This document shows positions 12,541 to 54,335 of a stretch of 64,000 bases of DNA, in pieces; the stretch's first letter is position 1, and each line of letters starts with the position of its first letter. This stretch comes from Dicyema japonicum (taxonomy: Eukaryota > Dicyemida > Rhombozoa > Dicyemidae). The stretch covers positions 1,107,389-1,171,388 of the forward strand of contig RDEW01000011.1 in assembly GCA_011109175.1 (NCBI GenBank), given 5' to 3'. The position numbers were made by a program, and so were the translations under genes. The notes below the pieces were generated by a model. That model saw only the letters and a program-made list of their open reading frames with translations, was not told the origin of the DNA and made no database searches.

Positions 12541-12859
12541 ATGAACACGCAAATGGATCGACAGAGAATTCTTAGAGAAATGTATGACGAATACATGGAG
12601 CAATATGAAATTTGTTGTAATATCAACAACCGACACGCAGCGTTAACTAGCGAATTTTATAGCTTTAAATACAAAAACAATCAAGAAAGAGGTAATAAAA
12701 AAATTAACGTAGATCTTTTAATTGAAGAAATTAATAATTGTAAAGTCGATGAGGTTAATTTCAATTAATGTTTAGAGTGAAGCCTATGCTGTTTTCAGAG
12801 CTTTAGAGGCCGATTTGTATCGTTTTATTACTGGGAATCTCCCTCCATTTTATAATTAG
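12541..12859 (+). CDS. small two-exon protein, unknown
   Basis: Exon 1 (12541-12753) starts with ATG. The intron (12754-12775, 22 nt, GT...TTTAG) removes a TAA in frame. Exon 2 (12776-12859) ends in TAG, giving a protein of about 98 residues. The first half is helical and acidic (REMYDEYMEQYEICC) and the end is PPFYN. The frame continues cleanly across the tiny intron, which is the main evidence. Exon 2 onward is duplicated at window position 1. No family is recognised. Confidence 0.6.
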
Positions 12860-14219
12860 TTGCATTTGATAATTTACTAATATTAATTTATCATGAATTT
12901 TAAAATTAAGAAGCAGTATATTAAGTTTGTATAATTTAACACCTTAACATATCTTATTTAGTAACTGTAAGCTAAGTTTAATGTTAGGGTATCAAAATTT
13001 CATTAGAGAAAGACAATTCAGCCTTAAAAAATAAGTAGAAAAAATTTTATCGAAGCTATGTTGTGAAACCAGCTTATTAAATATAGATTCGATCAAATAA
13101 TGCTCGCCAAATGGGAAATCTAAAAAGTATGAATATAAAGGACCATTAAGTATTATCAGAAAGCACATATATAAGATAAAAGAGAGCACATATTATATTA
13201 TTACTTAATTAAGAAAAGAATTACAAATAATGAGATTGGGATATTTAAGTTGGAATCACCTCTCAGAAACTGATAATAATAATAATAAAATAATAATTAA
13301 AATCAGGGAAATTTTTTAAAGGAGTTAAAATTTAAAATATAGCATTTATAAAAAAATATTGCATTTAAAAAATGTAGCATTTATAAATTTTAGAAGGCCG
13401 GGTGTTAGGTGTCGGGCTAGGTAGCTTAAACCACGGGTTCTATTCTCGCTGTTGTTCTCCTAATGGAAGGTTTCATGAATCTACGATGCAAAAAGGGCTT
13501 GACGAGTGACGTCGTCATCAGTGGAGATTCACTACGAAACTGGATAGATATATACACAAGAAAAAGAAAACAAAAAGTGAAGAGCATTCCTTGGTTTTCC
13601 CTCTACGATTAGTTATAATAACTGTTCTTTAGTTAAACGACAACGTGGAAGTGCTTACTATTATTGAATAAAGAAACATTAATATTTTTGAAAAAAAAGA
13701 ATATTAGTAAAGATTTACAGTTAAGAGGACGTAATTGAGGATGCTTCAAAATTTCGAGACTGCCTAAAAAATGTCTACTTTTTGGAATAGCTCGCAACAA
13801 CATAGATTTCCATATTAGTGTCTTTGAAATTTCTAATTTTTCTAATTAAGAATTTCAACTTTTTTTATTGATCTCCAACGTTTCATGTTTACAGTATATC
13901 CGTTCACAACTGTAATAGTCATTTCATGTTATATTTTGAATTTCTTGGTCAATTATTATAATTTCATTATGTTCTTGTCTTTTCGTAAAATATTTCTCAC
14001 TTCCGTTAGATCTCCACAAAAACAAATATTTCATCCCTTTTTATATGCTTTATTATTGTAATTTTTTGATGCAACTCTGAGCAACTGTTCTAATCCATAA
14101 TAGTTCAAAACTATTGGTCTTAACGAGAGTATATTTGCGCTATTTGAATTGATTTCGTTTGTAGAAAATTACTTAACAGTCAAAAGAACTAATTATATCA
14201 CAAATGGCGAGGTATTTTC
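12779..14219. repeat. 1.4-kb segmental duplication, copy 2
   Basis: This matches 1-1436 (see that entry). It begins inside exon 2 of the small gene at 12541-12859 and includes a SINE-1 copy at 13395-13640. The hydrophobic frame at about 13733-14065 is disturbed in this copy. At 14219 the match to copy 1 jumps over 545 bp and continues at 14221. Confidence 0.85.
13395..13640 (+). repeat. SINE-1 copy
   Basis: The same tRNA-derived repeat as at 614-862, duplicated with its surroundings rather than inserted independently. Confidence 0.7.
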
Positions 14220-14220
14220 A

Positions 14221-14760
14221 GAGGGAAAAAATGAACAATAGGTCATACAGCGTTCGATCTGACTGAGTGGCTATTCCTTCTCAGGATTGCGAACGAGATT
14301 CTCTCAAATAGTCAGCAGCGATTTCGGGGATCTCCTGTTCATCAAATGTCAGATTTGCTAAACGAATCAAGATTTCCAGCGTCGCAGGGATAAGGGAAGA
14401 AGAAATTTCAACTGTGTGGAACAAACAAAAATCCTCGAGTAGACCGCGTTCATTGCCGTTTTAACATCTCGTCCTGCTCAGCAGTAGCACACGCTCCAGA
14501 AGAATTCGGGAGTAGGGTGGAACAAACAAAAATCCTCGAGTAGACCGCGTTCATTGCCATTTTAACATCTCGGCCTGCTCAGCAGTAGCACACGCTCCAG
14601 AAAAATTCGGGAGAAGGATGCAAAGGGCAAACGTGTCTGTGCAGGTGACGTCTAAGACAAGATGTTTTCCGGCTTCAAATGTTAAAATGGTCATCCCATT
14701 TGGTCGTTTACTGTAACTCCTGCGAAAACCGATTAGTTAGAGCATTGATTGTCGCTTGGA
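14221..14760 (-). mobile_element. Element R, nuclease-like tail fragment
   Basis: The minus strand reads KRPNGMTILTFEAGKHLV, then LDVTCTDTF and GACATAEQAEMLKW. This is the PDG/WDxTCxDT signature of element R (P-N-G here instead of P-D-G). After frameshifts it continues to the C-terminal block (VEISSSLIPATLEIL) and FERISFAILRRN. A 101-bp unit is tandemly repeated inside it at 14416-14617. Confidence 0.75.
14416..14617. repeat. 101-bp tandem duplication (2 units)
   Basis: The units 14416-14516 and 14517-14617 differ at a few positions. They lie inside the element R fragment and have no N between them. It could be a real duplication or an assembly duplicate like those joined by single N elsewhere. 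Confidence 0.85.
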
Positions 14761-15097
14761 AAACCAATTAGTTAGAGCACTTTGGAGAGTATGATTGTAT
14801 CATATAGCAACAATGTCGACGTTTCGCGGCGTTATTATAAACTTAATGAATGAGTAATGGATATTTAATCTTGGTCTGATTATGGAGAAATTCAATAGAA
14901 GAGTGTGAGCGAAGTGATGACAATACACATTCAGGAAAAGGAAAAAAACTGTGACACTTAATTTTACTCCTGTGACAATTGGGTTTAAGAGGAAACGAAT
15001 TGGATAGAGAAGATTTTAATTAGAATTAGTTTTTTAAAATAAAAAATGGAATAATTGCTGTTAAAATAATAAAACGAGTAAATTATCTAATTAAGTG

Positions 15098-15352
15098 AAT
15101 TTTAATCCAAGTGGTTAGGTGTCGGGTCAAAGTGACTTAGGTTACGGGTTCGATTCTCGCTGCTGTTCACCTGGTAGAAGGTTCCACGCATCTACGATGC
15201 GGAAAGGGTTTGACGAGTGACGCCGTCATCAGTGGATACTCACTGCGGAACTGGATTCTCTAGAAAGGACCCACATACAAGAAAACAAAAAAGAAGTGAA
15301 GAGCATTCCTTGGTTCTACGATTAGTTAAAATTAACTGTTTTTTGCTTAATT
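15098..15352 (+). repeat. SINE-1, best-preserved copy
   Basis: The head contains CCAAGTGGTTAGGTGTCGG (A-box region) and a perfect tRNA-type B box GGTTCGATTC at 15147-15156. The body has CATCTACGATGCGGAAAGGG, GACGAGTGACGCCG and CACTGCGGAACTGGATTC, then the AAGAAAACAAAAAAGAAG and GAGCATTCCTTGG blocks. This is the copy that identifies the family as tRNA-derived. Confidence 0.8.
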
Positions 15353-15594
15353 AAAATATGTCTCCTGTCTATGAGGAGCTATAAATATTATGGCTCTCGT
15401 GAAAAGTCTGTTATTATTTTTATTTAATCCAAATCGCTGGTAATCTATCTTCTTTTCTTCTTAAAAGAGTGTGCCACGAACTATATCTTATGCCGCATCT
15501 TCACGTTGAGTCACTCGATATATTTCTGTTCGAGGTTAGAGGATGTCTTCATGGCATTCCAGTTCCACAATTTGATAGATAAAGAGATAAGCCC

Positions 15595-15641: not shown

Positions 15642-15692
15642 ATTTTAATAACCCCGGGAACACCGAGAAAGAAAGACAAAAAAGTCAAACAG

Positions 15693-16080
15693 TTAAGTGA
15701 TAACAGTCCTTGCAATCAATTGTGCCATTCGACGTCTGTGATCTTCCATCGTCTCCACTACTTTCCGGAAGAGCCTTCTATCGGTCTTGCAGAGGAATCC
15801 GATCGGGGAGTGGAATTTCTTATCCAATCGGTTTTCTCTTGCAATGGAAAGGATCAGGCAAAGCGGATTTCCATCTTCCTCACAGACGCGAAGAAATCCG
15901 GAGCCACGACTACAGATCTTAGCTTCCAAGAGTAGTGGGTCGACTGTTGATCTATTACGTGGGCAAAGCATACTGATTGTTTTCTGGTGTATCGAGTTGC
16001 ATCTTTGGACCATAGACTCCGATAGCGCGAATCTCCATGCAACAAAGGCATACTCAACGGCAGGCGCGATTGTTTGTTAG
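15693..16080 (-). CDS. Element P C-terminal region
   Basis: An open block with CEEDGNPLCLIL, then KTDRRLFRKVVETMEDHRRR, ending VIT-stop. The same end (GIT or VIT then TAA, followed by CACTTAA) occurs at 48320-48470, 54743-54985 and 51960-52000. It is probably out of frame with the RT block by one shift near 16080. Confidence 0.8.
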
Positions 16081-16910
16081 TAGAAGATAGAAACGGAAAA
16101 GTCCATGTTCCTTGTGGTCCTCCGGACAAGGGCGAGTAAAACGTTAATTTTCTGGAAGCCCCTGGTAATCATGTCTTTTGCGTGGGAGTTGAAATTGAGT
16201 AGACTGTCGTACTTGACTCCAAGGACAGTGGGGGACCTTGTCACTGGAATCCGAGTGGGACCAATAAAGATACTCGGTTCATTTTTGGAACGACGGTCCG
16301 AGATGAAAGTGGAACACGTGGGCTTGGTTGCAGTAATCGTAAGTCGATTGCCAACAATCCAATCGTGGAGAGTGTTCAATTTTGCCTGAGTTTTAAAGAG
16401 TGCGACTTGCGTCGAGCGGTTCCGTATTGCAATGACTACATCGTCTGCGTAAGATAATAGCAGGGAATCTTCGTCTCACTCATTAGGTAGGTCGTGTAGG
16501 AATAGATTGAATAGAATTGGTGAAAGTGGAGACCCCTGGGGTACCCCGCTCAGTAATAATCGTGATCTAGATCTGAGATCACCACTGACTACTCTTCCAC
16601 GTCTTCCAGACAAAAAGTTGGCCAGCCATAATTTCACATACGGACGAATATTAGTAGAAAATATTTTTCCAAACAGGATTTTCCTCGAAACAGTGTCAAA
16701 GGCTTTGTTGATGTCAATAGAAACCAAGATTGTGCGTTTGTGAGGCGGGGGATGGGTGTTAAAACCGTCGGCAATGAACTGCGATAGAGTTGCCAAGTAT
16801 GTAGCGGTGGACCTACCGCGGAGGAAACCATGTTGAAATATAGGACGTGGAAGATACGGAATAATGACTGATAATACAAGTTTCTCCATAATTTTTGACA
16901 GTTTGCTGGT
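16077..16910 (-). CDS. Element P reverse transcriptase
   Basis: The frame runs from about 16889 to 16077 with a single TGA after DLPNE. Motifs in order are FQHGFLRGRSTATYL, SIDINKAFDTVSRK (first catalytic Asp), LSGRRGRVVSG, SGVPQGSPLSPILFNLF, YADDVVIAI (YADD codons at 16440-16451) and the VLGVKYDSLLNF thumb. The catalytic residues are intact, so only the nonsense codon and upstream frameshifts prevent a full product. Confidence 0.9.
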
Positions 16911-17070
16911 AACGGAAATTGGCTTGTAGGATGCAGGTTCTGTCTCTGGTTTCCCAGTCTTTAATATCGGTCTGATGATAGAATTCTTCCAAATCTTGGA
17001 ATAATATTTTAGTTAATGGACAGGTTGTATATTTGCGTGAGGTAGCCAATTGCATAATGGCTTAGGTGTT

Positions 17071-18627
17071 TTAGGTGAATAGAAGATACTTTGTCAGGCC
17101 CGCACGCCCTGAGCTCTTTAATCTGGTGATCACATCCAAGACTTGGTCATCTGAGAATAGTTCGTGGTAAGGTTCCTTCTTCGGTTTATGAGCACGCACC
17201 TTAATGTCCAGGTGTTTCGAAAATAATTTGAAGCTAATCCCAGCGTAATGTTTCATAAGGGTGTTAGGATGTAGGTGGCATAAGTGTTCAGGAAAAGATT
17301 TTCCGGTTCCGTCTGCATCATCCAGCTCCGACTTGACTTGTTTAAGAGTTTTCCAGAAATGTCGGGATGTACTTTTCCTGTCGAGGTGGTTAACTAGATG
17401 CTGCCATCTCTTGTCCTTGTGTTCTTTTATGTTCTGACAGATCCTTTTATTTAGTCGTCTGAGGGCTGTCAAAGACTTCATGTCCAACAGATGGCATCTC
17501 TTCAGCCGGTCTCTTTGTTTTATAAGACTTATCGTATAAGAGCTGAGGGTAGGAATAAACTTCGACGATATAGGAATAAAAATATGGTCAGCTTTCTGAA
17601 TGGCAGAGCTGATAATTTCTTCTGCATCATCAATAGAACGTATTGGGGAGGATAATCTCCGGGCCAAGAATTTATCCACAAGGTTACTGAAACCAGACCA
17701 GTCAACCTTCGTATAATCTTTGAATCTTTTTGATTCCGCCGGCCGTCTCCTGTATCGTCGAAGACCTCTTAATTTTATAAGGATTCGATTGTGGTCACAG
17801 GATAAGCCGTAAAAGACGTTCCAGGAAATGATTCCAGCCAGAGAAGGTGAGCATAGTGTTAAGTCGGGGGATGTGCAGCTATCAGTCATCCTTAATGGGG
17901 TCCTCGTTTGTGAGTTAGGGTTGTTCAGTATAATCAGGTCAGGGAGATAATTTGCAATGAGTTCTCCTCGGTTATCAGAAGATTGGGAAGTGAGCCAAAC
18001 TGGATGTCGTGCATTAAGATCCCCACATAACAATAGATTTTTTAATGTTGAAATGCGTGATAAATCAGGGGTGTAAAATGACGGACACGATACTTGTGGA
18101 GGAATATATAAATTAGCCAAATGGATCCAAAAGGACGAGAATAACTCGATTTTGACAGTAATCTGCGACAAAGTCTTGTCGGTGCTAAGAAGCTCAGAGG
18201 TTCGTTGAGATGTATCAATATAGAGAATATTGTTTTTTATAATAGTGAGTAGTCTTCCTCCGCGTCCTCCTTGACGATCTTTACGGATCACTGTGTATCC
18301 GGGAAAAAAGGGTGTTGGTATGGAGGGAGATAGCTTGGACTCTTGTATTAAAGCGAGGTCAGCCTCATTTTCGCGGAGGAGTGCCCGGAGTTCAAAGATT
18401 TTCTTCCTGATCTCATTCATATTCAGTTGTATAATTGTATAACCTCTCCATGGACCAGGATTGGGTTCGACGTCTACACATAGACGAATCAAAAGTCTTG
18501 AACAAATGGGTACACCAGACAGGGTCAAAGACACAGGAGATGAAAGGACCACCGGACGGTGGGGAGAAGCTGTTGCATCTTTTCGTTCTTTTTTGAAATG
18601 GGTGACACCATTTCTGGTGAGCCACAT
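17071..18627 (-). CDS. Element P ORF: 2A-like peptide plus APE endonuclease
   Basis: This frame has 518 codons. Residues 1-50 are a basic to hydrophobic leader, and residues 52-59 are DVEPNPGP, a full match to the ribosome-skipping consensus D-V/I-E-x-N-P-G-P. An APE-type endonuclease follows at about residues 64-290, with IQESK, CGDLNARHPVW (about 201-211), SPDLTL (about 253) and CDHNRI near residue 278 (usually SDH). The remainder is the linker to the RT. The ATG is preceded by an in-frame TAG, so the start is well fixed. The frame ends at a frameshift near 17090, just where GPD of the RT linker would be expected. If the 2A acts, a peptide of about 58 residues would be released and Pro59 would begin the endonuclease-RT product. 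Confidence 0.92.
   Translation of the reverse strand: MWLTRNGVTHFKKERKDATASPHRPVVLSSPVSLTLSGVPICSRLLIRLCVDVEPNPGPWRGYTIIQLNMNEIRKKIFELRALLRENEADLALIQESKLSPSIPTPFFPGYTVIRKDRQGGRGGRLLTIIKNNILYIDTSQRTSELLSTDKTLSQITVKIELFSSFWIHLANLYIPPQVSCPSFYTPDLSRISTLKNLLLCGDLNARHPVWLTSQSSDNRGELIANYLPDLIILNNPNSQTRTPLRMTDSCTSPDLTLCSPSLAGIISWNVFYGLSCDHNRILIKLRGLRRYRRRPAESKRFKDYTKVDWSGFSNLVDKFLARRLSSPIRSIDDAEEIISSAIQKADHIFIPISSKFIPTLSSYTISLIKQRDRLKRCHLLDMKSLTALRRLNKRICQNIKEHKDKRWQHLVNHLDRKSTSRHFWKTLKQVKSELDDADGTGKSFPEHLCHLHPNTLMKHYAGISFKLFSKHLDIKVRAHKPKKEPYHELFSDDQVLDVITRLKSSGRAGLTKYLLFT
18451..18474 (-). other. 2A-like ribosome-skipping site in element P
   Basis: The codons GAC GTC GAA CCC AAT CCT GGT CCA encode DVEPNPGP, preceded by a hydrophobic LLIRLCV stretch as in known 2A peptides. 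Equivalents in other copies are at 19736-19763 (GDIEQNP, then GP after one extra base) and 21861-21872 (decayed to NPLP). Confidence 0.88.
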
Positions 18628-18659
18628 GAGACCACGCTAACAACATAACCCTAAAACTT

Positions 18660-27056: not shown

Positions 27057-29096
27057 TCATGATGATATTTGTGATAATATTTTTACTTTTTTCACTAATT
27101 GTGGAAGATCAGGCCAGTTGGCATCCATCCCCTTAAATACAATTAAAAGAGTCACCTCAAAGCTGAACCCTCCTTCTGAGTTGTGCACTATCAATTAATG
27201 ACCAATATGGGTTGCATCGATCTTAACTGACAATGCGAAGGCCCCTTCAACGGAGGTTGACTTTCTTACAAGGAACTCCCCCACCCTATCCCCCATTAAT
27301 TTTGTTATAGCCTCCTCTCTGTTTAAATTAACAAAATTTATATTTTTGAGTATTAAACATAAATTGAATTTTAAACAACCTTGTGAAGTGTGGTTGATAC
27401 CAAGTGTATTCCAATTTCTCATATAATGAATCATTCCCTGTGGTCAATTCTTTGATTGAATATTTAGTATGAAAAGAGGCGGTCCCATGTCCTCTGTCGT
27501 TTTTGTTTTGTTTGGTATTTTCTAAAATTGAATAGCAAAGAGACTATTAAAATATCTAAGAATTTTGCGAGTTTTCTTTGTGCTAACTTTTTTCTTTTCC
27601 TTGTTTTCCTTAAATAATTCATTTCTAGAAACCTCGACAGTCTTTTCACGTTCCATGGGAATGAACAAAAATGATTCAGTTGAAATCAATAGCTCTTTGG
27701 GGTAAAAAATTACCCTTTCAAGTTTACCATTGCCTCCCTCTTGGTTTGTTAGGCTTGGTCCCTTACTAAACACTACAAATAAGAGACTTCACATACAGGG
27801 TTGGTTCTTCTGTCTCCTCTCCATATTGTTGGATGTTGTCTCCGTCAAAACGTCATCAATAATCGGGCATAGAGTGTCATCGTTGTCCATATTATTCAAG
27901 GAAACCGGTTTATGCACATTGGGTTTTTTCACAAATTCAAAATACTCGTTAAGATTCCTGCGGTTCTCTTTGTAAGCCGGGAGAACGCGGAACCTAAGCA
28001 TGAAAGCCAAATGACACCTGAATCCGGAAGACTTGCAATCGTCCACAGGAGCCCCAGGAGAGTGTAAATCATCCATCTATACAAACAATTGTCTGGTTAA
28101 ACGGCGTGAAATAACAAAAGGAATAATTTAAACGGCTTGGAAACGGTAGGAATAAATTAAAGGCCAAATAATTGCGGTAGTTTTAAGACAAAAGGGTGGT
28201 TAATTATTAGCCACGTGCAAGTGCGATTATTAATATGGATTATTCAGTTTTATGCAGATTTAGTACTCTCAATCAATAAGCTATACATTAAGACAGTTTT
28301 CATTGAATTTCCTGTCGGTTGGCCTTGACTAGAATTTAACAAATGACTCACCTTTTGTGGCATTTGGAGGTCAGTGTTGCTTTGGTTGTTTGTCTTCCTG
28401 ATTTCGACTGCTTCTTTAAAGGCTGCTTTGATTTTATGGTTGATGTGGTCAATCTAGTATTAGCCAAACGATACTTGAAATTTTGACTTTGTTGAAAAAA
28501 AGTGGCAAAATTGGACAGACTTTTTGTAGTGCTGGTAGACAGTATCTGAGTTGTTGGGATTTCTTGCAATTATGGCGAATCTTCCAGTTCTGGGGTCGCA
28601 GAGTGCGTGAGATATTCTCTTCATGGAGTGAACCATTCTCAAATTCTAAAAATGTGCGTAATTAATGAAATTAAAGTCTGGTAAGCGAAGTCGAGTCGCA
28701 GAGATCTCCATTTACTACCTCAGAACAAAGTCCAGTAACTCTGATTTGCCTGCTCGAAATTGCAATCACAGCTGTCTCCCCCGAAAATGAGTTTTTCTAG
28801 AAAAATCGATTATGCCAGAAGAACTTTAATTGCTTAAAGTAGTAATAAAATTAGCGAATCAATTATTTTGACAAAAACCTGTATTTTCTGCAAATGTTTC
28901 ACTGCCCTGGAAATCTTCCCTTCCATGCACGTGCTCTCCAATAGAATGGATCCCTCATACTACATTGTTAACGAAATTTTAAAATCGAATGTTTTTTTGG
29001 ATATTTTAGTAATTATACCTTAACGAAACAGTGGTTTGAGTAAATGTGGTTTCCACAAGGGAAGGAGTCTTTACTTGAGATCGCTGAGGTTTTCAT
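27057..29096 (-). CDS. SHC: SHC-like adaptor (PTB and SH2 domains), one in-frame TAA
   Basis: Ten exons on the minus strand: 29019-29096, 28879-28959, 28719-28796, 28475-28645, 28352-28453, 27797-28076, 27545-27772, 27380-27521, 27156-27318, 27057-27131. All phases agree, giving about 465 residues, close to p52 SHC. Introns are 59, 82, 73, 21, 275, 24, 23, 61 and 24 nt, all GT-AG. Exons 2-5 form a PTB domain (YEGSILLES; AVIAISSRQIRVTG; HSMKRISHALCDP; INHKIKAAFKEAVE). Exons 8-10 form a C-terminal SH2 domain (WYQPHFTREEA, then GEFLVRKSTS with the phosphotyrosine-binding Arg). The PTB-then-SH2 order fits SHC, not tensin. In the SH2, GH-stop-LIVHNSEG has TAA (27195-27197) where SHC has Leu (TTA differs by one base). 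It is therefore a recent pseudogene, a polymorphism or an error. No clear YxN Grb2 site is seen in the linker. Confidence 0.85.
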
Positions 29097-31200: not shown

Positions 31201-32461
31201 AAGAGTGCTTTTTATAATGTTTGATACGCTTGTTCTTTCAGTCTCGAGATCACTGATTTGAAAAGGAGGCTCATTATTGAGATTGGAAATGGGTATGTTA
31301 GCTAATATAGCAAAGGAGGAGTATTTCATTGAGAAAGGAGCACATTTCTATAGACGCTCACGAGTCACATTTCTTGGGATACTTGATGCTGATCTCAAGT
31401 ACTTTAAAATAAAACGTGGATAACAATTTCATAATTTGAGAGATTAGTCACGACCGTGTTAGGTGACCGTCTTAGTAATTATAAATACAATATTTCCACC
31501 ATATAATTCACACTTGTATTAACAAACTCCTACTTTTTTGATGAGGTGGTTACGTGCCTCGTTTCCTGATTGGATCGCAATTGAGAAAAATGTCTAAAAG
31601 GCAAGGGATACAAAGGGATGCATCTCGTCTAAAGGTCCCTACGTTCAATGCTGGAGGCTTATCTACGATCTGGTCGAGGAAGATTCTTTGTGACGACCTG
31701 GAGAGATACGACGTATCTATTGGGAGCCTACAAAAGACGAAAGTTACTTGTAGCCTTGATGAGAACTATGGCGAATATCGAATTATATGTCAGCCGAGCG
31801 ACTAAAAATATTATGGACTTGGATTTGCCATCCACTCAAAGTTGACAAGTGCAGTCCACCGTATATGGATTGTGAATGACAGGATCTGTGTTATACAAAT
31901 CCGACTAAACGACTTGCCTCCTTTGAAGAGCTTTCTGACAATTGTAAATGTTTATGCGCCACACTGCGAGAGAGTAGCGAAAGATCCGACAGAACTAGAC
32001 GACTTATATTCAACACTGTTACGGACGTACAACTAATTTGAGTCGTCATCACTAATACTCATTGCTGGCGATTTGAATGCGAAAATCGGGATGAAAAATA
32101 ACCCGGATGATGTTTTCTTGGGAGAACATGGACGTGGAATAAGAAACCTACCCGGGAAATACTTGGTCACTTTTGTATGGCAAACAACCTTTTCCTATGC
32201 AATACTGCATTTACGCATCCTGCCTGCCACAAAACTACGTGGATGGGGAAGCGAAGGAACTCAGAGGGAAAGCTGGTCCCAATATAAAACCAAATAGATT
32301 ATGTCATATGCCGGGCTAAAGACAAACACCTTCTAGTAAACGCACGTTCATATGAAGGCTCGACGACTGTCAGCGACCACAAGATGGTTATTGCGACCTT
32401 CACCCTGAAAAACCAAAGTCGACTAACCATAAAAGACGAGAACGGTGAGCTGATACTGGAC

Positions 32462-32793
32462 ACCAAAGAACAAACTGAAGCCATCGCGGCACACTTTGAG
32501 AAGCTTTTCAACATCAAAAACAAAGAAATCCACCCATTTGATGGAAGGCCAAGACCCCTTGAGATACCAATCACGGCCGAGGAAATCAAAACGGCCTGCC
32601 GAAAACTCAAGAATAACAGAAGCCACCACCAAAGAACAAACTGAAGCCATCGCGGCTCACTTTGAGAAGCTTTTCAACATCAAAACCATAGAAATCCACC
32701 CATTTGATGGAAGGCCAAGACCCCTTGAGATACCAATCACGGCCGAGGAAATCAAAACGGCCTGCCGAAAACTCAAGAATAACAGAAGCCCCG
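32462..32793. repeat. 166-bp tandem duplication inside element B
   Basis: ACCAAAGAACAAACTGAAG starts at 32462 and 32628. The units are nearly identical and there is no N. The duplication repeats the pre-RT segment (ETEAIAAHFEKLFNI ... ITAEEIKTACRKL). Confidence 0.85.
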
Positions 32794-32879
32794 GACCAGA
32801 TGCGATATATCCAGAATTACTGAAATACGGCCCTGACCTCCTTTTTGAAGAAATTCGCTACACTACTAAATGAAACCAT

Positions 32880-33000
32880 TAAATTTATTATTAGGAAACA
32901 TGAGTAGTTAATTACTGAGTCCAGCGGATATGATCGAGTGGCTGTTACCTCTGACTACTGCCAGGGATATCCTTTGGAAAAGTTTTCAACGAAATGTTTT
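32880..33000 (-). mobile_element. Element R 3' tail inserted in element B
   Basis: The minus strand reads QRISLAVVRGNSHSI, the conserved end of element R. It separates LLNET (32868) from NEMFSTNSTLPLG (about 32985), which are contiguous in an intact element B, so this is a nested, 5'-truncated insertion. Confidence 0.6.
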
Positions 33001-34534
33001 CAACTAACTCAACTCTACCTCTGGGGGACTACTAATCCCCATACAAAAAACCAACAAAAACAAAGGACCGCTTGAAAATTTGCGACCCATCATACTACTA
33101 AATTCATTACGCAAAGTCATAGCAAACATTGTGCTTGAACGAATAAAAAGATCTGCTTACAAATACCTACCAGATAGTCAAAGTGGTTTTCGAGAAGGGA
33201 GATCCACAGATGATACGGTCTGGAGTCACAGATGAAGGTGTGCAACATATCAAAGATACCGTAACGCCACCAATATTCTGGGAATTGACCTATCAAGAGC
33301 TTTTGATACGGTTAACAGGAACAAATTAATGGGGGTACTGAGCGGATTTCTTGATGAGTCAAGTCTAAGGATGACCCGAATTCTACTTTCCAACACTGAG
33401 CTCCTTGTGAGAGTCGGAAAGACCTATTCAAGAAAATTTGAAACAAACACGGGCACTCCACAAGGAGACTCTCTTTCTCCTCTACTATTCACAATTTATC
33501 TGGAAACCGCTATGAAGGAATTTAGACCGTTATACCAAGGAACGACGGAAGAAGTGATCTACGCGGACGATGTAGACCTAATTTCTGAAGACAAAGAGGT
33601 CCTGGAAAATCTATTAGAAAAAGCACCAGATGTACTAGGGAAATGGTTTCTTACTGTGAACAGAGAAAACAGAACTCAAAGAGATAAGAAGGATGAGTAA
33701 CGTCCTAGAAAAGAAGTGGCGACACGTAAAGAAACTCGGTTCACTTATGGGAAATAGCGAAGATATTTTACGTAGGAAAACTCTAGCCAATGCTGGGTTA
33801 TATAAACTGAAGAATCTATGGCTCAATCAAAAAAGCATCGACACAAAAATGAGAATCCTATTATACGACTCATTCATAAACCCCGTACTTTTATGTAACG
33901 CTGGAACTTGGGCGACCTCATCAGCGGATATGGAAAAACTAGACTCGTTCCACAGAGGTCAACTGAGAAAAATAACAGGAACTACTTGGCCTACGAGAAT
34001 ATCGAGGAATGCTTTATATAAGAGATGCAGAACTTAGAAGTACTGGTATCCCGATAGAAGTTCTTTGGACACGTGCTGAAAATGGAATTAACATCCCCAC
34101 CGAACATATCTATGGAAACATACTATGTTAGTCAAGAAGGCCGCTATCGTGGAAGACCTAGAACAACACTGCCAATAGTCTTACAAAAAGACCTGGTCAA
34201 TATCAAAAGAAATCTAAAAAATGCCGACGACCTGGACAACATGAGAGCCTTGGCTAGGAACAGGGAAGCATGGGAAATGATGACATCTAACCTTGTTTCT
34301 TTTGCTGCACATGCGGGGCTATAATCAGTATAACTCTCGTGAAGTGCTTAAATAATAATATGGAGAATGTAGATGTACTCTCTCAAGTTCAAACTGTAAC
34401 TCACAGTAATAGCTTCTGGATTTTCTTGAAAGTCAGATTCCTCTATACTTTTTTTCAAAAACAGTATTAAATAAAATTATTCCAAAGACAAAGGTAAAAC
34501 CAAACTAACTAACTCCTAGATCCTGAATCGCTCC

Positions 34535-35562: not shown

Positions 35563-36606
35563 ATGAATGTTCTGTGCACAAATGAACATTTGGTGTCCTA
35601 TTTATTTATCATAATGTCACCAATTATGTTTTTGTCCCTTACTTTTCTTGATGCCCCATATGGGAGATTCTCAAGAGAGGGATATGGTTACTTTATCGAC
35701 CCCAAATTGGCATGGATTTTACAGGAAGTTCCCTCGATTATAGTTACTGCCATAATTTTTATTAATCAGAGAGATATGTTGAATATCCACAATATTTTGG
35801 CAATTAGTCCGTTTTTTATACACTACTTTTACCGGTTAAAGTATTTTCGTTTACTTAGATCTCTGATATATCCATTCANGGGAGATTCGCCAGAGAGGGA
35901 TATGGTTACTTTATCGACCCCAAATTGGCATGGATTTTACAGGAAGTTCCCTCGATTATCGTTACTGCTATAATTTTCATTAATCAGAGAGATATGTTAA
36001 ATATCTACAATATTTTGGCAATTAGTCCGTTTTTTATACACTACTTTTACCGGTTAAAGTATTTTTGTTTACTTAGATCCTTGATATATCCATTCAAAGC
36101 GAGATTTAGTCGTCCTACTCCGTTGTTGCCTTTCATGGTTGCTTTCTGTTTCTGTGCTACTAACGGATTTATTCAGGCTTGTGGGAACATTAACCAAACA
36201 TCACTTAATTTGTGGAGATTTTGCTTGGGATGTGGTGTGTTTATTTGTGGATTTATTATCAACATTCAATCTGACAGAATTCTGGCGTCACTCAGAAATA
36301 ACAGAGGAGCACGTGCTAATAGTGAATATTTTATCCCTCGAGGTTCTCCGATTTTTGATGTTAGGTGGACTATTTAACTATGTTTCTGCTGCCAATTATT
36401 TTGGGGAGATTTTAGAATGGTTTGGATACTTTTTAGCAGTGTGGAACAGACAGAGTCTCGCATTTCTTTTAGCTACATCCTCAAATTTGATTCCACGTGG
36501 CCTCTCCTATCATAGGTGGAATTATTTTTTAATAAGCAGATTTTATTTTAAAAAATTTGGGTCCGATTATCCTCAACGTAAGGCAATAATTCCTTACTTG
36601 CTCTAA
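35563..36606 (+). CDS. SRD5A: steroid 5-alpha-reductase (3-oxo-5-alpha-steroid 4-dehydrogenase)
   Basis: A multi-pass ER enzyme reducing the delta-4 bond of 3-oxosteroids with NADPH. Exons are 35563-35878 (with its duplicate from 35880), then to 36342, 36365-36515 and 36540-36606. Introns are 36343-36364 (22 nt) and 36516-36539 (24 nt). The single N at 35879 joins two allelic versions of the same 215 bp (35665-35878 and 35880-36095). Removing one gives 783 nt, or 260 residues, the usual length. Visible signatures: AWILQEVPS (catalytic Glu), GFIINIQSD, then IPRG joined by the first intron to GLFNYVSAANYFGEILEW, and HRFYFKKFGSDYPQRKAIIP after the second. Both splice phases are exact. It starts at the first ATG after AT-rich DNA. 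The two versions differ at several sites, implying heterozygosity of a few percent. Confidence 0.92.
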
Positions 36607-38800: not shown

Positions 38801-38811
38801 GAATACTACGA

Positions 38812-39300: not shown

Positions 39301-40386
39301 ACGGTACGTTTTATCTCGATGTCTTATTACTAAAAATCAATCCTATGTGTTCCCTATCTTACAATAACGAACACTATCATAGGATTCTAAAGTATAGATC
39401 TTAAAGTTGTATTATAAATTTAAGAGTTCACATTTCATGAATGAGTTTTAATCACAAATTCCCTAAGTTTTTTTAATAAACCAATTTTATTTAACTCAAA
39501 AAAACTAAGTCAACAACTGATGGATGCTCTCATAATTGAGAACGCATTTCCCCTAACGATTTATAAAGATATGCGATGAGCGAGTCGATTCTGTTTAGCT
39601 GGGCCAGTGACCTGTTTCCTATAATTCCTGACGTTTCCACAGCGACTAGTTCAAAAATGAACTATCCACTAAGACATTCGTATTTCTTTAACTTTAGGGT
39701 CTCAGCCTTCTCCGAAGCAGAACCTGGGTTAGTTGCTGTCGTTGCAAGGTTGGAGAGAGAGGCTATCGACAGAGGTGGCGTCCCTGGCAAGGTATTTACT
39801 ATTCTCCCATAGGAAGAGAGTAGTTCCGTCCGGACTTCGATTGGCTTGAGCAAGTCCAAGCGGCTCCGATTGGACAGGAAATCCAGCAGCCTCAAGTGCC
39901 AAGGCAATAACTCCGTTAATTGCTACGTGTCTTGGAGTCCTTCCAGCACTCCTCCAGCAGGAAAAAGGGTGAAGACACTTCGCGTCGTTTATTCTTCCAC
40001 ATCTACAGCGATGAATCGTACAAAAATCTATTCCAAGGCAGACGGAAGCCCCAATCCTCGTCGAGTCATCATCCAATGGTGCCTAAAGTGAGGTAGATGG
40101 TTTGAGTAAGGCTACACTCTCGTTAGTCGGTGTACAAGCCAGACGATGCTAATAAAGCAAATGTTTTATCTCTTCTATGATCTTTGAGCATAAAAGCTTG
40201 TCCCATTCTCGTTGTTTATTAGCGTTCTTCGGGAATCCAACACCCAGTCGAGTCTAGACTTCCCGACCATGCATACCACTGGTTCAGCGTCCGATCCGTT
40301 AATGTAGCGTAGGATCTGGCGTGTGAGACCACTGGAAGCATATGTCGAAGATAGAAAGGCCGGGAGGGCATGTTCTAGTGGAGAAC

Positions 40387-40738
40387 GTATTCCGATTCGT
40401 CCGTAGCGAAGAGGTAGTTTGCATTGGATCCAGCCAGTTTTATCAAAAAAAATGTTGAGCGTTTCTTAAACGGCAGTCCTTAGCTTCTCGTCGATGGCTC
40501 TTAAAAAGTTCATGTCCGTGAAACATGGGGCTGTCCGTAGAAGAAAAGGGAGTCGTGGCGTGGNGTATTCCGATTCCTCCGTAGCGAAGAGGTAGTTTGC
40601 ATTGAATCCAGTCAGTTTTATCAAAGGAAATGTTGAGCGTTTCTTAAACGGCAGTCCTTAGCTTCTCGTCGATGGCTCTTAAAAAGTTCATGTCCGTGAA
40701 ACATGAGGCTGTCCGTAGAAGAAAAGGGAGTCGTGGCA
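40387..40738. repeat. 178-bp duplicate around a single N (40564)
   Basis: GTATTCCGATTC begins at 40387 and again at 40565. The following approximately 175 bases are near-identical. Assembly artefact. Confidence 0.92.
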
Positions 40739-40776
40739 TGGAAATTCCTGAGGAAGAACAAAGCCATCTTCAAGTC

Positions 40777-41122
40777 CAAGGTTTGTAAATTTAATGAGAA
40801 TTATTGGAGTAATGTATTTTTTTCCAGGAAAGCTGACACATTATTGCAGTGTAGGAGAGAGCCAATAAAAATTGCATTTTCAAGTTGGGTAAAATTGCAT
40901 TTCGGAGGCGAGCAGAAATAGCGGCCACTGCACGGCCGAAGTCTTCCTCAAGGTTTCTAAATTTAATGAGAATTATTGGAGTAATGTATTTTTTTCCAGG
41001 AAAGCTGACACATTATTGCAGTGTAGGAGAGAGCCAATAAAAATTGCATTTTCAAGTTGGGTAAAATTGCATTTCGGAGGCGAGCAGAAATAGCGGCCAC
41101 TGCACGGCCGAAGTCTTCCTCT
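40777..41122. repeat. about 173-bp tandem duplication without N
   Basis: AAGGTTTGTAAATTTAATG at 40777 and AAGGTTTCTAAATTTAATG at 40950 start two nearly identical units, both ending with CACGGCCGAAGTCTTCCTC. It repeats part of the thumb of element R. Confidence 0.85.
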
Positions 41123-42434
41123 CCGTAAACAAAGTTTATGATTTCACATTTATACGGGTTCTGTTCCAACCCAAGCGCCGCAAGTGCAAAGATGGCGGAC
41201 TCGATTTCTGCCACCACAAGTTCCCAATTACCTCCGACGGTCTAGGTACTATAGATTAAATGGAGTTCGCATCGCTAATGCTGCACACTCGATACCAAAT
41301 CAAAAAAGAGGGGGCCAAAGGGGTCACCTTGTTGAATTCCAGTGATGATGTGTTCCTCGAATATCAACGTACATGGGGAACCATATGCAAATTTCATCAT
41401 TCAATTGATTTCCTGGATTCTGGAAATGCTAGCTTCTATGATTCTATCTCTGCGAATTATATTGAAAGCATTGAGGATGTCCAGTTTGACTACTATAGCA
41501 TTCGTAGTGTCTGGCGGACTGGCAGCAAAGTTCCTGATTGAATGGATTGATGCATCGCATCCATGAGGAATTTCAACCCCAAGTTGAGTAGGGTTCAGTT
41601 GGGTACTTAGAGTCTTGCTCGCTGTTCTGGCGGCAATCTTTGTCGTCAGGTGCCTGAATATGTTGCCTATAGCGATGGGTTTTAACCCATCACAAGGCTT
41701 TTTCAGGGAAATCAGTTTGGATGCAAAAGGGAGTCCTCAGGCATAGTCGGAGAATCAGTCCAAAGAATTCGGTCTTTAAGGGTCTTTATTGAATTAATGA
41801 GGGAGTTTTCCATATCGGCGAATGTGGCAGAAATAAGGTCTTTCATATGGCTCGGACGTGCGCAATCCAAGCCAGCACTGCTGCTTCCTAGAAAATATGA
41901 AATAGCAGATCGCATATAATCTGTGGTGGCTGCCAAATGTGGAATGTTCCTCCCAATTTCTGTCTCGCGTAGATCCGAGGGGGCCGGTAGATGTTTTTGG
42001 ATAATGAGCTCGAGGGTTTCTTTAGTTGGTGAAAGAACTTTGTCATTGCTGGAGAGCTTACGCAGGGCTCCCCAAATGTCTCCGACTATTACCTTCTTAT
42101 TCACCTCTTTGCATATATCCTACTTGTCTTTCTTGACCCTGAACGATGAGGGCTAATTATCAGCAATTGAATGACTTCCCAGTGCAGTCGTCAAGTTAAC
42201 AGTTTCGTATTTAGAGGCATTTCTCTTGATGATTGAATTGAGGTTCCTTTCTTTCAACTCGGTTGGATGTGAACCGAGGAAAAAAGGTACAAAGCAGAAA
42301 ACCTGTATCCAGGCATCTTGAGTATTGTCATCGACTGCCCTGACAATTAGCTTTGAAAGACATGAGGCAGCTGTTAGACGTGCCAACCTTTGGATCCTGA
42401 GTGGGATAATCCTCTCCGACACAAGACGATTCAA

Positions 42435-43135
42435 AAGGTGTAGGCAGTCATCTGTGTTAGATAGGTCCAGGACAAATCCAGGGGATGCTCCCTCCTTCTG
42501 CCGTTATTTCCAAGAATACTGAATTTTCTTCTTGTTTGCTTTTCCAAAAATTAGACAGGGGAGAAAGGGAAACACGGTTTATTACGACCACGTTTAGCTC
42601 GATGTCGTTTGTTCTGGCAGTGAGGTTTACCATTTCAATTGAGTGTCAAAGCGGCCCTCAATTATTAACTTTATCTGAGTGATAATAATATTATTCTAAA
42701 ATTTATAGTACAACCGCAAAAATTCCTAATATTTCTGACTATATTATGTCACATAGGCAGCTTGAAGCCTATGGACTACCTGTTTTTTAACGTGTTTCCA
42801 TGGTAACCAGAAATATACTACATAATATAACTTTCATGTAACTATTATAAGAATAACATTTAACTAATTCATTAATTCTATATAAAAAATTAATTCTAAC
42901 TTTATTAAATGGCTACCTGATTTCTTTTAATTTTAACGGCATGGCTTTAGTGATTTTTTATTTAAGGAGTTTATCAGAGATCTTGTTGAATAAGAAAAAT
43001 TAAACAGATCTTATGTGGAATTGATCCTGAGGCAATAAGTACTCAAAAGAAACTGAGAGTATGTGAAAAGGTTTCACATTTTTCGTTTAGAAACGATAAG
43101 TTTTAAGTTTAATTCTGATTTAATTTAGACTTTTC
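42435..43135. other. Start of element R 5' region and AT-rich DNA
   Basis: To about 42680 the minus strand may still belong to element R, but no motif is certain. From 42680 to 43135 it is AT-rich and nothing is seen. Confidence 0.35.
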
Positions 43136-44554: not shown

Positions 44555-45096
44555 TCATTGTGTATTATCAAACATTAAATTGAGATCAGTGTCCACAAAG
44601 TGATCATTTATGGGCAAGTCACAGTTTCCCCACCAATTTGTTTGTAGGCTCTGTATATTGTGGTCCACGTGTTGTTGGTGGTTGTAGTATTCATTACTGT
44701 AGTGAAATGCACTTTCATGATAGGTGAACTGTGATTGGTCGTGTGGATAAGGAAGCAAACCAAAACTGCAGTTTGATGCGTACAATTTATTAACTTCCTG
44801 GTTATATTTGGCAAGTCTGATGGCCAAGTCTATTTTCTGTCCAACAGGATACAAACTCTTGCACATTAATTCATATCTTAATTCCTCAATTTTGTAGTTT
44901 TGCATTAAATAAGTCACAGAGTCCTCCAAATTACTGCCTACAAATTAACAATAATTTACTTATTTTATATTTGGGTTTCTTTGCCTTTTCTTGTGAGGGT
45001 ACATAATAGTATATTTTTGTATCCTAAATTCAAATTTGGTTTTACATGAAATTTTGTTGGAAAATAAATTGGTTTTGTCCTTTTGAGTTTCTTCAT
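44555..45096 (-). CDS. SAP-domain nuclear protein
   Basis: Exons on the minus strand: 45046-45096 (ATG at 45096), 44960-45023 and 44555-44937. Introns are 45024-45045 and 44938-44959, both 22 nt and GT-AG, and both remove stops in exact phase. The product is about 164 residues: basic N-terminus (KKLKRTKPIYF), YVPSQEKAKKPKYK, a SAP motif (YKIEELRYELMCKSLYPVG with KIDLAIRL following, about residues 54-85), a His/Tyr/Gln-rich middle and an acidic hydrophobic end (DTDLNLMFD). SAP motifs bind DNA, often in scaffold or transcription factors. The basic block followed by SAP and an acidic tail recalls myocardin-related factors, but no RPEL repeat is seen and more 5' exons may exist. A further open block at about 45355-45282 (SLEKAEMLL-stop-EITENLGG) may belong to the same gene. 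Confidence 0.65.
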
Positions 45097-49467: not shown

Positions 49468-50787
49468 ATGGAAGATAATTCTGACCTATTTATGCCAGTA
49501 TACAAAGATGGAATTTTTCAATGTCCCTGGTCAACAGAACGCAGACCATCACTCTGGAAAGTTCTACAACATAGAATATTTAATAGACGACCAACCAATC
49601 CTTCAAAAAAGGTTATAGTACATTAATAATAATAGGAAGTAGAATCAGCCATTTTATGCAAAAACCCCCGAATTGTCGAAAGGTCATACGATATGCTAGT
49701 AACGTGGGTAGGTCATGCCTGTCTACTAGTTCAAATGGGAAATCTCAATATTATTACTGATCCAGTTTTTTCAGAATATTTAATAAACTGTCTGATTTCC
49801 CCAGTAAGAATGTGCAAAAGCGGACTGACCTTTCAGCAGCTTCCCTCTATTGATTTCGTCCTGATATCCCATAACCACTACGACCACCTGGACTACAATT
49901 CAATAATTTTATTAAAACAAAAATTTCCTTTTGCTGAATTTCTTGTTCCTCTCAAACTTTCGGAAACTTTGGTTGACAATTTTGGAATTAACAAAAATAA
50001 TGTTATTGAATTCTCGTGGTGGGACATAAAAAAATTGAACCCAAAAGTAAAAGTAGTGTTTGTCCCCGCACAACATTGGAGCAGAAGGGGAATCTTTGAT
50101 GAAAATAAAGTTTGATTATTCTCTAACTAAAGACCTTGTGGGGTGGCTGGTGTCTTATTGGGGATGATTCTATTGGTAATTTCTACTTTTCAGGAGACAC
50201 GGGGTATTTCCAAGAAATGTTTTGTATGATTAGGAAAAAATACGGACCGTTTGATGTTGCCGCAATCCCAATNAAAAAATTGAACCCAAAAGTCAAAGTA
50301 GTGTTTGTCCCCGCACAACATTGGAGCAGAAGGGGAATCTTTGATGAAAATAAAGTTTGATTATTCTCTAACTAAAGACCTTGTGGGGTGGCTGGTGTCT
50401 TATTGGGGATGATTCTATCGGTAATTTCTACTTTTCAGGAGACACGGGGTATTTCCAAGAAATGTTTTGTATGATTAGGAAAAAATACGGACCGTTTGAT
50501 GTTGCCGCAATCCCAATCGGGGCTTATGAACCGAGAAATTTATTAAAATTTGTCCATATGAACCCTGCTGATGCTCTCCAAGCTCACATGGATTTAGAAT
50601 CCAAACATTCCATAGCCATTCACTGGGGTACATTCGGTCTGGGATATGAGGTATCTGAGTTATCATTATCTAGGGGATTCTGACCCCTCAAGAACGTTTT
50701 GACTCATTGAATGATTCCGAAAAAAACTTTAAGTGTATAAAAGTAGGTCAAACTATTGATAAATTTGGAACAATTAAAAATACTTAA
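49468..50787 (+). CDS. NAPEPLD: N-acyl-phosphatidylethanolamine phospholipase D
   Basis: A zinc metallo-beta-lactamase-fold membrane enzyme releasing N-acylethanolamines from N-acyl-PE. Exons: 49468-49611, 49636-50109, 50378-50650 and 50674-50787. Introns: 49612-49635 (24 nt), 50110-50132 (23 nt, also present as 50355-50377 in the duplicate) and 50651-50673 (23 nt). All are GT-AG and phase 0. A single N at 50273 joins two versions of the same 243 bp. Counting one, the product is about 334 residues. Signatures: [26 protein letters not shown] (HxHxDH zinc ligands), [35 protein letters not shown] and IHWGTFGL. It is shorter than the mammalian enzyme, mainly at the N-terminus. All ligands are present and no internal stop remains. 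Confidence 0.94.
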
Positions 50788-51410: not shown

Positions 51411-51585
51411 ATTGAATTGGTTAGGCTTGACTTGACGAGTGACGCTGTCATCAACGAAATTTTCACTGCGTAACCGAATTGTCCACAGAGGACATACACC
51501 CAACAAAAAGAAAAAGAAGTGGAGAAAATTCCTTTGTTTTCCCTTATCGATTAGTTATCATAACTGTTCTTTACTTAAATAAAGT
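51411..51585 (+). repeat. SINE-1, diverged copy
   Basis: GACGAGTGACGCTGTCATC, CACTGCGTAACCGAATTG, AACAAAAAGAAAAAGAAG and the ATTAGTTATCATAACTGTTC block match SINE-1. The tRNA-like head is mostly lost. Confidence 0.65.
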
Positions 51586-51589
51586 ACGT

Positions 51590-51835
51590 GTCCTGTCCAG
51601 CTTCCGACATCTCTTGAATTTTCACACTCCGTCAGTGATCCAACTGCACTCCGGAAGTGCCTTCTTTTATGTCTGCAGAAGAATTCTATTGCAATTACAC
51701 GTTTATGGTCGATCTGAATTCCTCTGCATGATCCGCCTTTTCTCTGAATGGGTTTTCTAGCTCCTTTAAAGTATGTAGGAAGCTTTGCCATTTCTTAACT
51801 TTGCTGCCTCTGAAAGTAGAATGGTGATGGAAATG
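51590..51835 (-). mobile_element. Element P C-terminal fragment
   Basis: The minus strand has FFCRHKRRHFRSAVGSLTE, matching KTDRRLFRKVVETME and KDDRRLFRKAVGTLE in other copies. Confidence 0.6.
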
Positions 51836-51954
51836 GTGTTTGATTGCCTATGCCGCTTGATTTTCCGCATGATAGAAATTATACGCTCGATCCTTTAAGA
51901 GGAAACCTCCAGGCATAACAGGCATTATAACTACCCCCAGGATCATCAGGTCAA

Positions 51955-52215
51955 ATGGAAAGAAATAAAAGTTCTCATCTAACTAAGTGATTCCAGACCG
52001 ACAAAGGAGAGGACAAGTCCGGCAGGGTCGAGAATCCTGAACAGCTCTTCTCATTGGACATGGCATCGGCTTAAAATTTTTGTATGATTGTAGATATTTC
52101 GATAGTGTCAGTAAACTAGCCTCCTTTAAGAGTTTCCGTTGTAATTCGATTAAGAAATTTTCAATGGGATAGATTTTGTGTTCTGGTCCAATTAACCTTA
52201 TTGCTCCTCGATAAC
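51955..52215 (-). mobile_element. Element P 3' end
   Basis: The sequence AACTAAGTGATTCCAGACCGAC and the following approximately 240 bases resemble 48325-48480. The minus-strand frame ends SGIT-stop just before CACTTAGTTAG. Confidence 0.55.
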
Positions 52216-52332
52216 AGGCACATTCAATTGTCCTGCGTAAAAGTGCAGTTTATTAACGAATTTTAATAAAAAAAACATAATTTATTTTATAAATGTAATA
52301 AACAAACTTTAACTACTCGAACAATTTGATGG

Positions 52333-52428
52333 ATGATTTTGAATTTAATGCCGTGTGACTCACCTACGTGGTGGTATCGCTCACCTGAAGTGTTGGAAAA
52401 AATCAAACTAATAAAGGAAATGCCTTAA
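52333..52428 (+). pseudogene. protein-kinase activation-segment remnant
   Basis: DDFEFNA, then in the next frame LTYVV and, after a further shift, TWWYRSPEVLEKI ending in TAA. The DFGFAR ... YVxTRWYRSPEVL order of CDK/MAPK-type kinases is visible but damaged. No other kinase subdomain was found nearby, so this is a short remnant or a chance match. Confidence 0.3.
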
Positions 52429-52429
52429 G

Positions 52430-52625
52430 CGAAAGACGTATCAAGGGTGTATCAATGATTTCTTTCATATTAACGGAATATTGCTCTCGTTTATCAAGAT
52501 TAAAAATTTGTGATGTTATCACTGTCACTGAAGGTCCCAGGTGCTTCAGTTCGAGAACAGAGATATCATCTGAGTTCCAAGACGACGAGTCAATAATTTT
52601 CCTTGGTCACTGAATGCACCCTAGA
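52430..52625 (-). mobile_element. Element P, pre-RT fragment
   Basis: The minus-strand SSWNSDDISVLELKHLGPSV and IFNLDKREQYSVN match SSSCGSDDISVFELKHLGLS and IFNLSTNEN of the copy at 58590-58720. Confidence 0.6.
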
Positions 52626-52653
52626 GTGGTTGAAAATGTTATACTGGGGGACT

Positions 52654-53345
52654 TTATGAATCCACTATGGTATTATTATAAGCACTTTCACGAGAGCCAT
52701 AATATTTATGTGCAGCAAAAAATATAAGAGAATTAGTTAGGTTGCTCCAAGCTCCTCTGTTCTGTGCTAGGTCCCTCAGTGAGTCCAAATCGTCACCAAA
52801 TGCCAATGTTTTCTTCACGGCTTTCAGATCGTTTTGTAAACGACCGGGAGGGTAGTTCTCGGTCTTCCACGAAAGCGTTTTATATTGGAGGAGTAGTAAT
52901 CTTCCATTGCGAAATTGGGAGGGGATATCGGGTCCAACCTCAGGACGTGTCCAAAAAGTCTCCAACAAGAACTAATGATCTCGTGGCTTAATGGTATACA
53001 GTCACATTTATTGTACAGTCCATTCCGAGAGATCTTGGATGGCCAGGACATTCCAGTTATGTTTCTTAGATGATTCCTGTGAAATGAGTCTAGCCTCTCC
53101 AATTCCTCTTTAGAGGTGGCCCAGGTCCCATAGTTGTATAGTAGGATTGGTTAGATAAAAGTGTCGTATAACATAATCCTTTGTTTTATGTTATACCCTT
53201 TTTGTTTTAGCCAAAGATTTTCCAGCCTGTGTAATGCCTCTTTTGCCAATGTTTTTCTCCGTATGATGTCTTCGCTATCTCCTAGTAGAGAGCCAAGTTT
53301 CTTTATGTGTCTCCATTTCTCACTATGGTATAACTACAAAATTAG
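52654..53345 (-). mobile_element. Element B thumb and C-terminal fragment
   Basis: On the minus strand: KKLGSLLGDSEDI-like (about 53310), a GTWATSKEELERLDSFHRN block, ITGMSWPSKISRNGLYNKC, LFGHVLRLDPISPPN, RFRGRPRTTLP, then in another frame DDLDSLRDLAQNRGAWSNL. It is frameshifted near 52830 and 53105. Confidence 0.85.
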
Positions 53346-53405
53346 ATAAAATTAATTGTAATTTAATTTTAAAAAGTACCAAATTACTTGGTTAGCAACC
53401 AAGTA

Positions 53406-54335
53406 ATGTTTGTACAATATTTAGACTCTACTCAAGTCGATAATATCAAAAAATACAAAGTGAGTTACAACATATTCGTAGTACAGTGGAGTAGACACCA
53501 GTCCTTTCTCAATTGGAGTTGGTTGTTCAGGGTTGGTTTGTTATCATATGTTAGACTTACATTCCTGTTTGGTTATCCCCAAATTTGCTTACCATTTCCA
53601 GTTTGGGGGTACTTATGTTTTCATTCCTTGTTATTGACATGTATGACTATAACTTTTGCACGTGCACATCTGTGTTATTCGTTGCTATTCCTGCATGGGT
53701 TTGGATTATCACGTCAATATGTGTTTTTTTATCCCACACTCTTGGTCTACCTTGTATAAGGACATATAGATGGAACTGACGGAATGCAGGCGAGGAAGCT
53801 TGGGATTATTTCCCCAATGGGGGAACTACTCGATCATTGATGTGATAGCTTCTCTGCTTATTTAATCTCAGTCTTTATATTTTCCTCTCTCTATTCGTGT
53901 GGTCCTGGAGGAATTGGCATTCTTAGGGTTGTTGTTAATATTCGGAGTATTATTACCCTATTCTATATCACACATTGGGATAAATACATTACAGGAACTC
54001 TTTTCCTTTCATGGGGTTACGATCCAATGTTCGTGGTTGTTATGCATTACTATTTCAGTTAATTTTTTATGCTTTTCATGCCCTTATTAAAATTTATTTG
54101 GAAGTTCTCTAGTTCTCTATTTTGGATACTTTAGAGTGGTCTATTAGTGTTGTAATACGTCACTTACGTCTAGTTTGTGTGTGGTATCTCAACGCCTGTT
54201 TGTATAATGAACATATACAAATCGTATTATGAAGAGACTGGGAAGATGAAATCCTTCTGGGAGGCCATTCGACCAGTTTGCTATCTGCTGTCTACAAGAG
54301 ACAAAAACGACCGTACAATTTACAGAACTGTTTAG
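53406..54335 (+). CDS. SELENOI: ethanolaminephosphotransferase (EPT1/SELENOI-like), premature TGA, damaged 3' end
   Basis: A multi-pass CDP-alcohol phosphotransferase making PE from CDP-ethanolamine and diacylglycerol. Exons: 53406-53459, 53482-53535 (or -53517), 53555-53744, 53770-54032, 54059-54103 and 54174-54335. Introns: 22 nt (53460-53481), 19 or 37 nt (ending 53554), 25 nt (53745-53769), 26 nt (54033-54058). Later junctions are uncertain. Landmarks: YLDSTQVDNIKKYKYSGVDT, YIPVWLSPNLLTI, PAWVWIITSICVF, the catalytic DGTDGMQARKLGIISPMGEL with LLDH, then TGA (53838-53840), then CDSF, HWDKYITGTLFLSWGYD and NIYKSYYEETGKMKSFWEAI. The TGA replaces the glycine of the DHGxD motif (GGA needs one change). 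The end runs into an element B fragment. It is probably a decaying copy. Confidence 0.82.

Follow-up and report, generated by a model that had tools for sequence, protein, structure and literature searches.

The window analysed here is a 64,000-nucleotide (nt) stretch of the Dicyema japonicum genome (contig RDEW01000011.1, positions 1,107,389 to 1,171,388; G000:C13:1107389-1171388) with a G+C content of 0.370, taken from an assembly of 64,672,829 bases in 191 contigs (GCA_011109175.1). It harbors genes resembling NAPE-PLD, SRD5A and EPT1, a gene with matches to PTB and SH2 domains, a small gene at 12541 and a further gene at 44555, and the original prediction had proposed that ultrashort spliceosomal introns interrupt all of them. 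Ten of the 15 short introns put forward (21–26 nt) were examined, of which eight are backed by homology and two by the reading frame alone; sequence alignment and reading frame are the basis of what we state about individual introns throughout. Taken together with a genome sample of protein kinase genes, the short segments are very probably ordinary U2-type GT–AG introns that have shrunk to about 22–23 nt, like those of dicyemids in general.

The NAPE-PLD gene on the plus strand contains three phase 0 introns of 24, 23 and 23 nt. We employed a profile built from 120 listed of 7699 relatives in a free spliced alignment, in which any GT..AG pair 12–300 nt apart was permitted, and exactly the proposed introns 1 (49612–49635), 2 (50355–50377) and 3 (50651–50673) were recovered, the score rising from 192.0 to 363.3 bits once splicing was allowed. 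The spliced protein aligns to PDB 4qn9 over 13–307 and shows no break at any of its three junctions; small gaps flank the first one. When all 256 dinucleotide pairs were compared as intron boundaries (15–40 nt), GT..AG ranked first, followed by TT..GA only 5 bits lower, a small margin because neighbouring cuts yield almost the same protein. Intron 2 appears a second time at 50110–50132, where it holds CTAAC, owing to a 244-base repeat that the assembly carries around the single N at 50273; the copy at 50110–50132 is the left and that at 50355–50377 the right one of this assembly duplication. The octopus NAPE-PLD ranks 19th among the 120 listed relatives with 39% identity and is not especially close.

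Ten such single N are found in the window (30889, 35879, 37740, 40564, 45899, 48500, 50273, 57476, 59251 and 59635), and several are followed by a second copy of up to about 250 of the bases before them. These repeats are probably contig overlaps that were left unmerged, so that exons are present twice.

Both introns proposed for the SRD5A gene, likewise on the plus strand, hold when compared to PDB 7c83, to which the spliced protein aligns over 21–258 without a break at either junction. The 22-nt intron (36343–36364) is fitted by this alignment, and the 24-nt intron (36516–36539), which is in frame and contains no stop codon, is placed by the alignment to 7c83 alone. In the EPT1-like gene on the plus strand, the first intron of 22 nt (53460–53481) and a 25-nt intron directly before the DG..AR motif (53745–53769) leave gap-free junctions against the cholinephosphotransferase 8ul9, as expected from the earlier proposal. 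A further 19-nt candidate in this gene (53536–53554), offered as possible, keeps the frame and its junction is crossed by the alignment to 8ul9, which has a gap of four residues a little upstream, but it stays unproven, since a 23-nt reading (53532–53554) with an upstream frame break is also possible, a reading we only translated. The gene carries an in-frame TGA at 53838–53840 within a conserved region, and its frame is doubtful near 53500; it may be a decaying copy.

The gene with PTB and SH2 matches lies on the minus strand and had been named SHC-like. Its 21-nt intron (28454–28474) contains an in-frame stop, and the match to PF00640 scores 25.8 bits with the 21 nt removed and 20.2 bits when the protein is read into the segment up to its stop. 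A piece of the gene also matches PF00017. A search with the PTB part returned no PDB chain, so the label SHC is not shown. Of the longer introns proposed for this gene, those of 73 nt (28646–28718), 82 nt (28797–28878) and 59 nt (28960–29018) leave an open frame upon removal.

Two further candidates of 22 nt depend on the frame. One lies at 12754–12775 on the plus strand in the small gene at 12541 and contains an in-frame stop, and the other at 44938–44959 on the minus strand in the gene at 44555. The latter had been described as a SAP-domain gene, but a Pfam search of both genes found no SAP domain and no other match above the cut-off, only one weak match to DUF3447 (E 0.023). Both candidate introns are supported by the frame but not by homology.

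To place these genes in the context of the genome, 40 stretches were read out of 142 listed protein kinase matches. Twenty of the loci were the first of the list by score alone; the other 20 include L046–L065, which were chosen partly for close-lying exon matches. As this choice favours short introns, the 20 score-chosen loci were also tallied separately. The kinase profile was derived from the genome's own unspliced frames at the sampled loci, before L056–L065 were added. Spliced alignment called 141 introns, of which 40 were dropped as weak because they did not reach more than 4 bits on each flank. Among the 101 supported introns, 89 measure 20–27 nt, and those of up to 35 nt (n = 96) have a median of 23 and a commonest length of 22 nt. 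In the score-chosen loci, 46 of 53 introns fall within 20–27 nt, and 46 of 55 do so when introns of up to 2500 nt are permitted, with two of the 55 exceeding 100 nt (371 and 800 nt). The supported lengths peak at 22–23 nt, whereas exonic GT..AG pairs spread evenly across 20–27 nt. One supported intron of 15 nt and one of 18 nt are not trusted, since the same picture could arise from a small insertion or from an alignment edge set wrongly. A boundary control on 30 kinase loci with 54 dinucleotide pairs (15–40 nt) gave a gain of 2427 bits for GT..AG and of 1793 bits for TT..AT as the next pair, with 89 of 105 introns at 20–27 nt for the former versus 44 of 84 for the latter; some of this leans towards GT..AG, as the control stretches were cut around GT..AG alignments. 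The short introns of the window look real and, as had been pointed out, very small by animal standards, but introns like them predominate in the sampled kinase loci and are no peculiarity of certain genes.

The same pattern occurs in genes for splicing factors. U2AF65 aligns to 1o0p over all 100 residues, a stretch that spans a 23-nt intron; Slu7 is gap-free against SLU7 of 5xjc at the junctions of a 24-nt and a 25-nt intron, and in Prp18 a 22-nt segment lies between adjoining model positions and its removal restores the frame. For another U2AF65 intron we considered a length of 19 nt (C114:220586–220604) and prefer a 22-nt reading extending to 220607, which presumably preserves the length of the human protein.

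For the splice-site signals, the five supported kinase introns longer than 35 nt (42, 58, 75, 89 and 91 nt) were excluded, leaving 96. Past the GT, the information at the 5′ splice site amounts to 0.35 bits at +3 and to 0.07–0.14 bits at +4 to +6, and G occupies +5 in 19 of the 96 introns; the 3′ part of the introns is T-rich. Four more (15, 18, 35 and 35 nt) were removed for the branch-site test, which left 92 introns of 20–30 nt. The motif TNAY, counted where the A falls between −12 and −5, is present in 65 of these, compared to 41.8 expected from base shuffles, 43.4 from dinucleotide shuffles and 37.6 from composition-matched GT..AG segments, and YTNAY is present in 45 (27.1, 29.2 and 22.8 expected from the same controls). 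No comparable excess of TNAY was seen in the 92 introns with the A upstream of −12. In the 65 introns bearing TNAY, the median position of the A is 16 when counted from the intron start and 8 when counted from its end. CTAAC or CTAAT before the AG, which the original prediction had highlighted in several introns, is no general feature, since CTAAY occurs in three of the 92 (1.8, 1.9 and 1.7 expected); the looser TNAY takes its place. We further compared the introns to the 555 GT..AG pairs of 20–27 nt present in 27,915 bases of kinase coding sequence. A local score tested by leaving out one gene at a time separates both groups with an area under the curve (AUC) of 0.944, which is an upper estimate because coding composition aids the score; the 3′ part contributes an AUC of 0.906 and the 5′ part one of 0.723.

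The genome encodes a number of splicing components. For U2 small nuclear RNA (snRNA), 25 matches were obtained, 16 of which are above the cut-off and 187–191 bases long, and the branch-recognition sequence is intact in all ten sampled loci. The U2 genes are multi-copy, and each of the ten (L004–L013) has one A more than the Rfam consensus ahead of the branch-recognition sequence, as is usual in Drosophila and C. elegans. The 5′ end of U1 snRNA, ACTTACCTGG, is intact in five of six sampled loci. A single match to U12 snRNA is above the cut-off (G000:C68:163471-163599), so the minor spliceosome may persist in this reduced animal. Slu7, Prp18 and SF1 likewise have matches above their cut-offs, and the idea that Slu7 and Prp18 had been lost owing to a branch site close to the 3′ end is ruled out, as both are encoded. 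A second, diverged Slu7 match (G000:C31:16119-16319) was considered as an intronless retrocopy, but when it is aligned as DNA with the first match, no gap of this kind opens where the 24-nt intron lies; a duplicate made at the DNA level appears more likely. The G-patch exon at G000:C130:234775-234894 we take to be SPF45-like, and no second domain was seen by eye within about 1 kb. A search with PF10197 gave no match for Cwc25, a result that does not show its absence. As far as their sequences tell, the parts checked (U1, U2, U12, SF1, U2AF65, Slu7 and Prp18) seem to hold nothing unusual.

Could the short segments be something other than introns, namely small insertions, errors of the assembly or lesions of the frame in gene copies undergoing decay? 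The assembly does have repeated flanks at its single-N joins, and the EPT1-like gene with its in-frame stop and uncertain frame would suit such an explanation. We nevertheless consider it highly improbable, because the preference for GT..AG and the range of 20–27 nt hold over the kinase loci and because U2AF65, Slu7, Prp18, NAPE-PLD and SRD5A all show the same pattern. The assignment to U2-type introns is instead supported by GT..AG ends that interrupt conserved proteins and by U1 and U2 snRNAs of this genome whose recognition sequences are intact, and their likeness to dicyemid introns by the 20–27 nt lengths with several introns per gene, as established on kinase loci. Some observations weigh against this assignment and against the recognition scheme proposed below. 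None of the 11 U1 matches is above the Rfam cut-off (best 69.0 versus 69.5 bits), and U2AF65, read exon by exon, remains below the cut-off of its whole-protein profile and was confirmed by the alignment to 1o0p. The published averages (a mean of 38.2 nt in D. japonicum and 26–27 nt in other Dicyema) exceed the mode found here. In 31 of 89 cases an exonic GT..AG pair in the same coding sequence outscores the true intron on local signals, which leaves the recognition model incomplete. YANTY, the control motif, is raised as well (37 of 92 versus 26.8, 26.1 and 26.3), and part of the TNAY signal may therefore reflect base composition near the 3′ end.

The last point bears on a second alternative, in which no branch-site motif is used and length and T-richness alone are enough. 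It fits the raised YANTY count, the separation of introns from exonic GT..AG segments by T content alone (AUC 0.865) and a 2008 study of 41 Dicyema introns (PMC2483917), which reports an absent branch signature and the weakest 5′ score. The excess over composition-matched segments is larger for TNAY (z 6.4) and CTNAY (5.0) than for YANTY (2.6), however, and A is found at −8/−7 in 45% versus 28%, which makes recognition free of any motif unlikely in our view. The lack of a branch-point signature is a trait reported for dicyemids rather than a defining one, and it does not describe the 92 introns studied here, in which the loose TNAY is enriched.

We slightly favour the proposal that a full animal-type machinery, including SF1, U2AF65, Slu7, Prp18 and even U12, serves donor-branch-acceptor units of about 22 nt with the branch A placed some 16 nt after the start and 8 nt before the end. 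The spliceosome probably defines such an intron as one small unit, with U2 pairing weakly at the TNAY site. Only about five bases separate the branch A from the AG, not enough to hold a complete polypyrimidine tract, so that branch site and AG would probably be read together. U2AF65 or an SPF45-like factor might act mainly via contacts to the U2 small nuclear ribonucleoprotein, and the narrow length range would itself be part of the splicing signal.

Apart from these genes, the window contains many pieces resembling non-LTR (long terminal repeat) retrotransposons, recognized by eye from open frames, e.g. at 2155–6962, 16077–18636, 31540–34320, 39730–42500 and 55179–56962. In the genome as a whole, six matches to rhodopsin receptors were found at five places; published counts of such receptors are two for Dicyema sp., 32 for Intoshia, an orthonectid, and six for a sponge, given as the lowest number among animals.

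Very short introns in dicyemids have been known in print since 2007, when 16 introns of Dicyema acuticephalum with a mean of 26.2 nt were reported (PMC2222250). A 2019 study gives a median of 27 nt for Dicyema sp. and cites Ogino 2010, who surveyed 40 genes of D. japonicum (PMC6543705), and the D. japonicum genome paper lists 67.5 Mb, a GC content of 36.7%, 377 scaffolds and a mean intron of 38.2 nt (PMC6736024). What we add is modest: a weak branch-site signal and evidence of ordinary splicing parts. A larger, alignment-based set thereby shows a weak signal where the earlier sample of 41 introns showed none. On dicyemid branch points, a mostly open-access literature yielded only PMC2483917, and the motif may be in print elsewhere, e.g. 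in Ogino 2010.

Compared to the published Dicyema introns, those studied here are similarly very short, narrow in range, several per gene and weak at the 5′ splice site, but their mode is 22–23 nt as opposed to a mean of 26.2 and a median of 27 nt, and they carry a loose branch motif. The orthonectid Intoshia has a reported median of 57 nt, compared to 23 nt in our kinase sample. Chlorarachniophyte nucleomorph introns (18–21 nt) and Mikrocytos introns (16–17 nt; PMC10245619) likewise form narrow, tiny size classes; both are shorter still, and those of Mikrocytos are strongly conserved in sequence. Human short introns in which SPF45 replaces U2AF65 (PMC8363638) share a polypyrimidine tract too small for U2AF65, but the model intron there has 56 nt. 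The introns of Stentor coeruleus (15–16 nt) resemble those of D. japonicum in their canonical U1 and U2 recognition sequences and in a branch A near the 3′ end without a strong branch consensus, while their lengths are nearly fixed, as opposed to the 20–27 nt spread seen here. In Stentor, Slu7 and Prp18 were reportedly not found by BLAST (PMC9505925), whereas both second-step factors are encoded in D. japonicum. If our reading is true, tiny introns need not entail the loss of Slu7 and Prp18 suggested for Stentor, and an animal would allow one to measure how small the footprint of a standard spliceosome can be. The minimum room that a spliceosome requires would become a testable question in an animal with existing RNA data.

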